From Phycisphaerales bacterium (GTDB lineage: Bacteria; Planctomycetota; Phycisphaerae; Phycisphaerales; SM1A02), in NCBI GenBank assembly GCA_029260575.1, contig JAJDDB010000004.1, forward strand, positions 62,001 to 126,000: a stretch of 64,000 nucleotides of DNA, read 5' to 3'. The position numbers and the translations under genes were made by a program. This document shows positions 22,839 through 26,058 of the stretch, one piece after another. The notes under the pieces are model-generated. The model was not told the origin of the DNA, made no database searches, and worked only from the letters and a program-made list of their open reading frames with translations. Numbering within the stretch: position 1 is the stretch's first letter; the number at the start of each line of letters is the position of its first letter.

Positions 22839-23540
22839 TCACGCCGCCAACCGCAGAACATCATTGCCCAGCCGCAGCGTCTGGCACTGCATATGCGTAT
22901 ACACCGCCTCGCTCATCGGCCCGGCCTGCTGGCGCGGGTTAAACCACCGCGCTGCGATCCACACGACTGCGCCCGGCTGAACATGGTCGAACGTGATGTC
23001 CAATCGCGGCCGCGTCGTATTTGTCTGCATCCACTTCCGGGGGTCGGCAGGCGGCCGATCACCCACGTAACTCAGAATCGTCGCGCCGGCTACGCCCTGC
23101 GGTTTGCCCCGCCGCAGCGACTTGCGCGCTTGCACCGTGATGCGCACTGTCGAACCGAACAGCAGCTTCGCCGAAACCCGCGGCCGCTCGACCGGGCGCC
23201 GCACCGGCGACGGCTGCGTATCGCGCACCGTCAACCCGAGGGCTTGCTTGTGCTCATTGCTCACGCCCGGCGTCGCCTGAATCAATCGCGCCAACTGCCG
23301 CAGCGACCGCTCCGCATTTCGCCGGGCGGTGTTCTTGGCCCCCACGGCAGGCGTCGTGCGCGTGATTGACTGCGTGGCTCTCGTGAATGCACTGTGCAAT
23401 GTCGCATTGAGCGCTGCATAGTCACTCGCCATCGCTGGCGTCAGACCGAACGCAACAGGTGTCGCATTGATCCGCGCGCTGAACGAAGCTGAGAAGTTGA
23501 CGAAATCACAATCGCGCCGCGGAATGAAATCGTGTGCCAT
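22839..23540 (-). CDS. Conserved hypothetical protein, helical N-terminal and beta C-terminal domain
   Basis: 233 residues from ATG 23540, which begins MAHDFIPRRDCDFVNF. I do not know a function. Residues 1-125 look helical, with repeated Ala-rich helices (AMASDYAALNATLHSAF, ARRNAERSLRQLARLIQ). Residues 145-233 look like a beta-sandwich (AKLLFGSTVRITV, RLDITFDHVQPGAVVWIAARWFN, MSEAVYTHMQ). No signal peptide is seen. Open reading frame continues upstream of the ATG only because the 21-bp repeat array there is free of stops. The array ends 56 bases before this start, so it may influence expression. The gene ends 10 bases from the convergent FAD oxidase. Confidence 0.6.
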   Translation of the reverse strand: MAHDFIPRRDCDFVNFSASFSARINATPVAFGLTPAMASDYAALNATLHSAFTRATQSITRTTPAVGAKNTARRNAERSLRQLARLIQATPGVSNEHKQALGLTVRDTQPSPVRRPVERPRVSAKLLFGSTVRITVQARKSLRRGKPQGVAGATILSYVGDRPPADPRKWMQTNTTRPRLDITFDHVQPGAVVWIAARWFNPRQQAGPMSEAVYTHMQCQTLRLGNDVLRLAA

Positions 23541-23595
23541 GATGAATGTTTCGGCCCATGCGAAGCCAGACTTCAGCGATTGCGGCGTTCTTCGA

Positions 23596-23805
23596 AGCGA
23601 AAGAGGCCAACCCCTTGCAAGCAGGGGACTTCCGCACGACGCTTGTGTGCATCCGCACGCGAATGGCGGCTGCCCCCGAGCGCTTCGGGGGAACCCCCGG
23701 AATGCTTGGGGAAATGCCCGATCGGGATGCGGAGAAGCCCGCGCGACGCGGGGCATGTCGCGGAATCAGTGGGGGAGGTTGCGAGTGGTGTGGGGTTGGC
23801 CGCAG
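23596..23805. repeat. 21-bp tandem repeat array, ten clear units
   Basis: Ten consecutive units of exactly 21 bases without an indel, starting at 23596, 23617, 23638, 23659, 23680, 23701, 23722, 23743, 23764 and 23785; an eroded eleventh may follow. The sequence varies, but each unit keeps a core of about GGGGA-n(2-3)-CCCG around an imperfect dyad, clearest at 23685-23700 (CGGGGGAACCCCCGG). Read on the plus strand the array gives heptads of pattern xx[R/W/C]GxP[R/H]. No direct-repeat/spacer alternation exists, so it is not CRISPR. It lies between the acyl-carrier-like gene and the hypothetical gene, both on the minus strand. The 21-base period is two helical turns, so all cores face the same side of the DNA. 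Confidence 0.8.
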
Positions 23806-23817
23806 ACTGCGTTGTTC

Positions 23818-24102
23818 TCAGTCGGCATTCAGATCGTCGACATAGTGTGTCTCATCAGTGATCGAATCGCGCTTCACACCGAACTGTTCGGCAACAATCG
23901 TGTAGACGCGCTCACGAACGGCCTCGATTTTCTTCATCTCATCCGGATTTGACTTGGAAGTGTCGAGATCAAGGCCGTGCTGCGCGGCGACGTAGCGAAC
24001 TGTGTCCCCGACGGTCTGCATCTGTTCCGCATCCGCATCGGGAATCTTGAGATCGAACTCATCTTCGACCTCCATCACGAATTCGACACTGTCGAGTCCC
24101 AT
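23818..24102 (-). CDS. Acyl-carrier-like protein with halves in swapped order
   Basis: 94 residues. It begins [20 protein letters not shown], which is the middle of an acyl carrier protein: GLDS would hold the phosphopantetheine Ser (Ser5), and helix III follows ([15 protein letters not shown]). After a linker (TSKSNPDEM) comes what is normally the N-terminal half: [35 protein letters not shown]. The stop falls where a second attachment Ser would be expected. It may be a circularly permuted carrier, a head-less and a tail-less carrier joined, or a planctomycete family with this natural order. GGAGAA precedes the ATG at 24102. Both ends lie next to 21-bp repeat units. Expression and modification are unproven. 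Confidence 0.65.
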
Positions 24103-24151: not shown

Positions 24152-24214
24152 CGCGCTTCGGGAAAACCCCGGACGCAGTGGGGGAGGTTGCAGAACGTGT
24201 GGGGCCGGCCACGA
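24152..24214. repeat. Second copy of the 21-bp repeat, three units
   Basis: Units at 24152-24172, 24173-24193 and 24194-24214, in the same phase and orientation as the main array. The last two nearly repeat the units at 23764-23805: both loci share CAGTGGGGGAGGTTGC, then GTGTGGGG and GGCC. The acyl-carrier-like gene thus lies between direct repeats about 409 bases apart. Confidence 0.78.
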
Positions 24215-25071: not shown

Positions 25072-26058
25072 TCAGCCCGTTGTGGTATTGACGTTAACGG
25101 AGGTGAAGAAGTCATCGTCCTTCGCGCAGAGTCGTTTCTTGGCGATGTCGAAGTATTTCTGATCAAGCTCGATGCCGATGCTGTTGCGGCCCCACTTCGC
25201 GCAGGCGTGGTTAGTCGTGCCGGTTCCCATGAAGGGATCGAGCACTGTATCACCGACGAAGGAGAACATACGGGTGAGGCGTTCCGCGAACTCGACGGGG
25301 TACGGCGCAGGGTGTTTGGGGTGAGACGTGCCACGCAGATCCATCCAGAGTTGACGGAACCAGCGTTGGTAGTTTTCTGCACTGATGATGCTGAGTAGGC
25401 GTTCCTGTTTGGTCGGACTGCGATATCCACCTGGCTTGCGCTGCATGAGAACGAATTCGATGTCGTTCTTGATGACGGCATTGGGTTCGTATGGTTTGCC
25501 GAGGAAACCCGCGCCGCCGCCGGAGACTTCGTACTTGGCGTTGGCGATCTTGTGCCAGATTATTGGAGCGAGGTTGTCAAAGCCGATCGCTTTGCAATGG
25601 TCCTGAATGGTCGCATGGAGCGGGACGACAGTATGCCGGCCGTTGTTCTTGCGACGGGAAAGGCAGACATCGCCGACGTTGATGATGAGCCGGCCGCCGG
25701 GAACGAGCGCGCGGAAGCAGTTGTTCCAGACTTCATCGAGACCGGCAATAAATGCGTCGTAGTCGTCGATATGGCCCATCTGTTCATCGTGTTCGTTGTA
25801 CCGCTTAAGCGTCCAGTATGGCGGCGAGGTAACAACAAGGTGGACTGAGCTTGGCTCAAGCGCGGAAGCGGTGCGGGCGTCGCCGAGGATAAGGTGATGA
25901 TTCGTTTCGAGTCCGCCGACAACGGCTTCGATGCGTTGCATGGCGCGGGTATCGCGTGCAAGTGTAGGAACCGCGTCATCGAGTTTGCCATTGCCGTATT
26001 CGTCAAGTAGAGATTCGACGGTGTCGCCGGTCGAAGTTGAGGTCGCAATCGTTGTCAT
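25072..26058 (-). CDS. Site-specific DNA methyltransferase (beta class) of the restriction-modification pair
   Basis: 328 residues from ATG 26058. Catalytic motif IV, TSPPYW, comes early (about residue 80) and the SAM-binding motif I, DPFMGTGTTNHAC, comes near the C-terminus. This order defines beta-class amino-methyltransferases (N6-adenine or N4-cytosine). Other segments are GDARTASALEPSSVHLVV at the N-side and GIELDQKYFDIAKKRL at the end. It presumably protects CTCGAG from the endonuclease encoded immediately downstream. The frame continues upstream through a TTG (26097), but the resulting hydrophobic leader would make no sense for a methylase. As I recall, the characterised PaeR7I methylase is larger and of another class. 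Confidence 0.88.
   Translation of the reverse strand: MTTIATSTSTGDTVESLLDEYGNGKLDDAVPTLARDTRAMQRIEAVVGGLETNHHLILGDARTASALEPSSVHLVVTSPPYWTLKRYNEHDEQMGHIDDYDAFIAGLDEVWNNCFRALVPGGRLIINVGDVCLSRRKNNGRHTVVPLHATIQDHCKAIGFDNLAPIIWHKIANAKYEVSGGGAGFLGKPYEPNAVIKNDIEFVLMQRKPGGYRSPTKQERLLSIISAENYQRWFRQLWMDLRGTSHPKHPAPYPVEFAERLTRMFSFVGDTVLDPFMGTGTTNHACAKWGRNSIGIELDQKYFDIAKKRLCAKDDDFFTSVNVNTTTG

Follow-up and report, generated by a model that had tools for sequence, protein, structure and literature searches.

The repeat array and its neighbours

The window, by which we mean the whole 64,000-nucleotide stretch analysed, is part of a contig of 516,607 bases. It contains an array of ten contiguous 21-base units at 23596–23805, free of indels as the preliminary description had reported. 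The array is located 5′ of an HDFIP-type (MAHDFIP) gene on the minus strand (22839–23540), which encodes a protein of 233 amino acids, and is separated from the gene start by a 55-bp spacer (23541–23595). Lag-21 self-identity of the array was 0.481, a value reached by none of 20,000 first-order Markov shuffles (shuffle maximum 0.429). The lag-21 score at about 23653 was the highest 126-bp lag score in the window over lags 15–30 (0.524, z 5.6). The array was absent from the TRF output for the window.

A second, three-unit array of 21-bp units is located at 24152–24214 on the plus strand, in the orientation of the main array and beyond an acyl-carrier-like gene; it was missing from the list of the earlier reader. 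Its unit 2 is identical to unit 9 of the main array at 17 of 21 positions, and its other units are loosely similar to main units (unit 1 matches unit 6 at 14 of 21 positions, unit 3 matches units 9 and 10 alike at 13 of 21). The acyl-carrier-like gene (23818–24102, minus strand) looks circularly permuted: residues 3–41 match the second half of the ACP models and residues ∼58–94 the first half. A partial second match to it, covering residues 3–40 only, was found at C35:30129. The suggested co-occurrence of this gene with the array did not hold, as a full-length match was found in its own genome only among 41 genomes.

The literal strings GGGGA and CCCG, which had been proposed as a GGGGA-n-CCCG core, each occur four times in the main array. 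What stands of that core is a pattern of columns over the 23 units of three arrays: G is found at unit positions 8, 10 and 11 in 22, 21 and 20 units, and C at positions 17 and 19 in 19 and 22 units. The dyad described for each unit is quasi-palindromic, with a self-complement value of 0.417 at the best phase and 0.23–0.33 at the remaining phases. Open reading frames run across all or most of the array in every plus-strand frame and in one frame of the minus strand, instead of the two frames described. Because the DNA is so GC-rich, this openness is no sign of coding.

Further arrays in the same genome and in relatives

Another array in the same genome (locus L002, contig C27) shares 84% identity over 95 bp with the main array. 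It keeps the unit order of the main array over four units, with unit 2 identical at 21/21 positions and the next three at 15, 16 and 18 of 21; beyond those four, the correspondence is less clear. A Y1/REP-type transposase-like ORF (L002:710–1177, plus strand) is located ∼220 bp from this array. Its NCBIfam match (E = 3.4e-4) was below the family cut-off, and no relatives of it were found at the other loci scanned.

A 63-position sequence profile, R1, was built from the main array, the L002 array and the array at 24152–24214, and therefore matches these three by construction; the match to 24152–24214 (E = 9.4e-10) is to be read as that of a training sequence. A weak R1 match (E = 0.0012) was also seen at 25276–25324 (plus strand) of the window, within a DNA-methyltransferase-like gene.

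A nucleotide search with the main array against 60 relatives gave nothing convincing outside its own genome (best E = 0.0075). Foreign relatives were reached by a translated query and the sequence profile instead. A search with R1, a profile search of the array having been recommended, had hits at E ≤ 0.1 in 15 genomes of the 101 searched, including the window's own. Six foreign R1 matches were examined. At L071, L072 and L090 the array was located 5′ of a MAHDFIP-like gene, which in L090 is cut at the contig end. No MAHDFIP-like gene was seen at L073, L074 or L075 (ORFs were listed for L073 and L074), and no 21-bp array was evident at L075. The translated array search yielded an additional array with a MAHDFIP-like gene at L051. 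Its match at L055 most likely falls in a coding gene with a repetitive tail.

Several 21-bp arrays are orphans with no HDFIP gene nearby. Besides the arrays at L002, L073 and L074, these are L053 and L054 (ORFs of at least 120 amino acids within ∼1.5 kb considered), a clean palindromic array at L243:11573–11883 in genome G160, and an array at L233:3607–3740 in genome G000. No HDFIP-type ORF is found within 2 kb of either of the last two.

The HDFIP-type protein family

The profile A3 was made from four HDFIP-type proteins and applied to only 28 candidates in each genome. The family was detected in 21 of the 101 genomes searched, with 24 match places, fragments included, in the window's own genome. 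The alignment A4 of 25 members was run against 392 genomes of the phylum and gave matches in at least 18 of them (seven candidates per genome scored). One peptide pattern confirmed 11 loci in a named collection of metagenome assemblies, labelled Planctomycetota, Phycisphaerae, Phycisphaerales, Planctomycetaceae and Vicinamibacteraceae. The last label, carried by WYBR01000058.1 (G047), is probably wrong, as the genome was placed in the window's order. Bacteroidota may also carry the family.

Searches of 25 members against Pfam gave weak scattered hits only (best E = 0.0063) and no FnIII hit, and three members against NCBIfam (E up to 1) gave a single weak hit (E = 0.21). The HDFIP-type protein had no hit in PHROGs and none below E = 0.2 among PDB sequences, and no transposase or recombinase family was found in it. 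PADLOC gave no convincing match for four members and one neighbour; a weak Csm2 hit on the L217 protein (E = 0.0062) was judged to be chance.

The AlphaFold model of the window protein (mean pLDDT 90.5, pTM 0.62) predicts a helical bundle at residues ∼10–100 and a fibronectin-III-like (FnIII) domain at ∼113–218. The predicted C-terminal domain matched 6tpv_A at VIA Z 13.6 (rmsd 2.0, 96 residues aligned), the match list for the whole model covering mainly residues 112–221, and on this model it has a FnIII β-sandwich fold. The bundle modelled alone had a pLDDT of 89.2 and found no PDB fold match at E ≤ 0.001. The N-terminal part of the proteins is near neutral in charge (mean +0.7, range −6 to +10). 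By a rough script, the C-terminus is Ala-Ala in 54 of 88 copies.

A GNAT-like gene is located downstream on the same strand at 23 of 94 loci in nine genomes (for example L129:3090–4253). The encoded proteins have a long Lys/Ala-rich tail, and Pfam support for the GNAT acetyltransferase reading is weak (E = 0.041). At six loci in four genomes a repeat protein takes the place of the GNAT-like gene; repeat proteins of AVTTEKIANG type were seen downstream of the HDFIP-type gene at L207, L218 and L189, in G160, G397 and related genomes. No ORF of either kind follows the window copy.

Three IMG/VR contigs catalogued as viral (L230, L231 and L232) encode proteins 79–94% identical to that of L127 in G089. 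TRF found no 20- or 21-bp array in the viral contigs L230 and L231, and the search of viral contigs with alignment A5 found none. No record of the plasmid collection was matched by three members (tblastn), and no phage was matched by the one member searched.

Linkage of arrays to HDFIP-type genes

To quantify the linkage, 94 gene copies were taken from the listed A3, peptide-pattern and A4 places, picked by score and irrespective of arrays. The best 84-bp self-identity at lags 14–30 was measured in 700 bp on each side of the gene, in gene orientation, with a threshold of 0.54; threshold, window size and choice of copies were our own settings. The upstream denominator is 90, the copies with enough upstream DNA, and the downstream denominator is 94.

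Upstream, 57 of 90 copies reached 0.54, and the best lag was 21 in 51 of them and 20 in six, with no other lag. Downstream, 13 of 94 copies did so at lags of 14, 16, 18, 24 or 30, none at 20 or 21. The co-occurrence with the MAHDFIP-type gene proposed earlier thus holds across relatives. With the window copy and L099, L101 and L102 left out, the latter three having been first found by their arrays, the upstream count was 54 of 86. No array was detected at 0.54 in 33 of 90 copies; the window copy itself lies just below the threshold and was counted as a miss. At a threshold of 0.50, arrays were found upstream of 74 of 90 copies (lag 21 in 66, lag 20 in six, lags 18 and 24 in one each) and downstream of 25 of 94, including three at lag 21, so that the two sides separate less cleanly than at 0.54.

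Random 700-bp windows had a best lag of 20 or 21 at 0.54 in one of 280 cases in G000 (of which ∼2.5 kb is masked as N) and one of 280 in G160; at other lags there were five and four such windows, respectively. The gene-upstream regions of the same genomes had arrays in 10 of 19 and 7 of 7 cases. Corresponding counts were 6 of 6 in G111, 6 of 6 in G397 and 3 of 7 in G391. When proteins were clustered at 50% identity, 20 of 36 clusters had at least one array. Nine loci of a distant branch were viewed apart; L195, L196 and L197 had 21-bp arrays (0.63–0.74) and six had none. The number of units varies by locus, from ∼5.5 to 26.

Constraint on period, columns and symmetry

No common unit motif was found beyond near relatives, the unit consensus scoring 0.336 versus 0.332 for permuted columns (1182 pairs, 53 arrays). 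The period, by contrast with the sequence, is kept. Six arrays of period 20 belong to one clade of nine proteins from two host families, the other three members of which have one array of period 21 and two no array. Mapped on the protein tree, period 20 required two changes versus a mean of 5.9 after shuffling, and none of 500 shuffles was as low. The period may follow the clade through linkage alone.

Nine pairs of orthologs or close paralogs were compared. Substitutions were found at 174 of 1104 sites in conserved columns and 208 of 882 in variable columns (Fisher p = 1.3e-5, an approximate value because the pairs share loci); the result was reversed in two pairs, L187/L202 and L160/L163. 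Array indels were absent from five pairs and amounted to 21 bases in two, a net 20 in one and 17 in one. The flank 5′ of the array diverged by 0.28–0.56, while the array diverged by ∼0.1–0.25 in seven of the nine pairs. The spacer that separates the array from the gene was better conserved than the array in several pairs (divergence 0.028 in L160/L205 and 0.000 in L151/L153) and worse in others. The lag, indel and clade tests bear out the earlier proposal of selection on a spacing of about two helical turns. At the 0.05 level, 29 of 64 arrays had significant dyads, compared with an expectation of about three.

A proposed phased array on duplex DNA and the alternatives

The dyads showed no preference for a strand. 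Over 64 arrays, the mean folding z was −2.09 for the sense strand and −2.07 for the antisense strand, the sense strand being better in 32, and the dyad arms of the 29 arrays with significant dyads contained 193 G-U pairs versus 180 A-C mismatches. Such strand-symmetric dyads and folds are expected of duplex DNA, while hairpins formed in a transcript should be biased towards the sense strand. Because of the fixed two-turn period, the dyads, the strand symmetry and the linkage in cis, the simplest reading is a phased element acting as duplex DNA. We consider it the best explanation, at nearly even chances, that array and gene form one module, with the array as its cis component, bound as phased duplex DNA and controlling the adjacent gene.

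In such a module, a dimeric protein would bind the 20- or 21-bp units that lie immediately 5′ of the HDFIP-type gene, and would do so in their double-stranded form. With two turns per unit, the dimers would be aligned on one face of the helix, and a cooperative nucleoprotein array could form and control the adjacent gene and those that follow it. Binding may be by the product of the gene itself or by a partner protein. The unit sequence is private to most copies, and we therefore propose that each module may be addressed separately. The near-neutral charge of the N-terminal part of the protein, the bundle lacking a PDB match, the 33 of 90 copies lacking an array, the 35 of 64 arrays lacking a significant dyad and the orphan arrays count against the DNA reading. 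A DNA-binding array nevertheless remains the best of the three candidates given in the preliminary description, whose interpretation overall was partly supported; a structured RNA, the second candidate, is not favoured given the strand symmetry.

As a structured RNA leader, the array would form a row of hairpins in the 5′ untranslated message and act in translation, stability or protein binding. Some loci suggest this. At L217 and L225, TTGACA/TATAAT sites with zero mismatches are located just 5′ of the units, and such a perfect sigma-70 site at these two AT-rich loci means that the array may lie inside the transcript there. A Shine-Dalgarno-like sequence, read by eye, follows a few bases past the array at L225 and L226, and the L217 array folds at z −8.2. 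Over 60 arrays, however, promoter-like sites with at most two mismatches numbered six forward (3.55 expected) and three reverse, which is not clearly above chance. For the window array, folding is better on the strand opposite to the gene (z −3.9 versus −1.7), a constant spacing of 20/21 makes no obvious sense for an RNA, and an Rfam scan of the window at gathering scores gave only a tRNA and nothing for the array. The strand tests over 64 arrays do not support RNA hairpins as a general explanation for the dyads, and we regard an RNA leader as unlikely.

A mobile or selfish element with REP-RAYT-like logic would have the array as its recognised site and the orphan arrays as non-autonomous offspring. 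This reading is kept in play, at a probability as low as that of the RNA leader, by the patchy multi-copy spread of the family (24 match places in a single genome, but presence in only 21 of 101 genomes searched and in at least 18 of the 392 from the phylum), by shared blocks with unrelated flanks and by orphan arrays such as L243 and L002, the latter with its 84% identity to the main array. The paralogs L187 and L202 share one 1113-bp block consisting of the array region and the gene, with no match outside it in ∼3.65 kb each; L160 and L205, which come from different species of the same genus, have a single 1238-bp block of array and gene in common. Other pairs have long downstream DNA in common too, however, and no inverted-repeat ends were seen in L187/L202, the sole pair inspected at its ends. 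The lack of a transposase or recombinase family in the HDFIP protein, of relatives of the Y1-like ORF of L002 at the loci scanned, and of matches in the plasmid collection (three members) and phages (one member) also argues against mobility.

Neutral replication slippage, with the arrays intergenic by happenstance, would account for the likeness of units within one array, the variable unit number and the whole-unit differences in some pairs. It is hardly probable, considering that periods 20 and 21 occur solely upstream of the gene at 0.54 and other periods solely downstream, that unit columns are constrained, and that in seven of nine pairs the array has diverged less than its 5′ flank. A heptad-repeat element that codes, or once coded, for protein is the least credible explanation: 21 bases are seven codons and heptads can be read on both strands, but substitutions are flat over codon positions in most pairs (L215/L224 is uneven at 3, 18 and 14), 20 of 60 arrays are closed in all six frames, only three of 60 stay open as far as the frame of the gene, and the period is 20 in six arrays, so that coding is rejected for the family. 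With it fall both the young heptad-repeat element, the third candidate proposed earlier, and the decayed coding repeat without conserved spacing that had been named as the outcome contrary to selection on phase, the period being kept in relatives. From the column, indel, flank, frame and stop results, the array is constrained and non-coding.

Comparison with known systems

Iterons of plasmid origins are direct repeats of about two helical turns located beside a gene and phased on one helix face. The arrays of the window type are likewise phased direct repeats next to a gene, and their periods of 20 or 21 bp lie within the iteron range of ∼17–22 bp. They differ in that no Rep-type initiator family was detected (25 members against Pfam, E up to 0.1; three against NCBIfam), in their location on a long contig in many copies per genome with mostly private repeat sequences, and in the lack of a plasmid-collection match for three HDFIP members.

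Arrayed operators and nucleoprotein-filament sites of bacterial regulators are phased dyad sites 5′ of a gene, as are the arrays 5′ of the HDFIP-type gene. Here, however, there are 5 to 26 units, mostly unshared among paralogous copies, and no known regulator family. A repeat array beside a gene family also recalls CRISPR, but, in keeping with the misfit to CRISPR noted at the outset, the units are contiguous and diverged and there are no spacers, and no convincing PADLOC match was obtained for four HDFIP members. The HDFIP protein resembles FnIII proteins in the predicted fold of its C-terminal domain; it differs in that this domain is joined to a helical bundle with no clear fold match and gives no Pfam FnIII hit.

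REP/BIME elements with RAYTs are palindromic, extragenic and multi-copy and occur in gene-linked and orphan forms, according to PMC3733652. The present arrays share these properties. However, they consist of contiguous tandem 20/21-bp units; GTAG, CTAC and CGTC are absent from 23596–23805, where GACG occurs twice, in keeping with the misfit to REP types recognised before; and the partner is a predicted helical bundle with FnIII, lacking any Y1 family match.

No description of an array combined with an HDFIP-type module was found in the literature searched, which covered the openings of abstracts. These comparisons leave us inclined, at somewhat less than an even chance, to regard the arrays and genes as an undescribed planctomycete module, made of a bundle-plus-FnIII protein family and a private phased array for each copy, in which spacing and dyad are kept and not sequence. 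Within this reading, keeping spacing and dyad rather than sequence would let many insulated copies coexist in one genome. Bacterial repeat arrays have led to large discoveries before, and the present one is linked, in planctomycete families distant from each other, to one particular protein family that has no name and reaches as many as two dozen match places per genome. It is unusual for a cis element to preserve its period, and often its symmetry, through the turnover of its sequence. Such turnover would need a recogniser that either co-evolves with each array or responds to the shape and phase of the DNA, and the pairing of array and gene makes this question directly testable.
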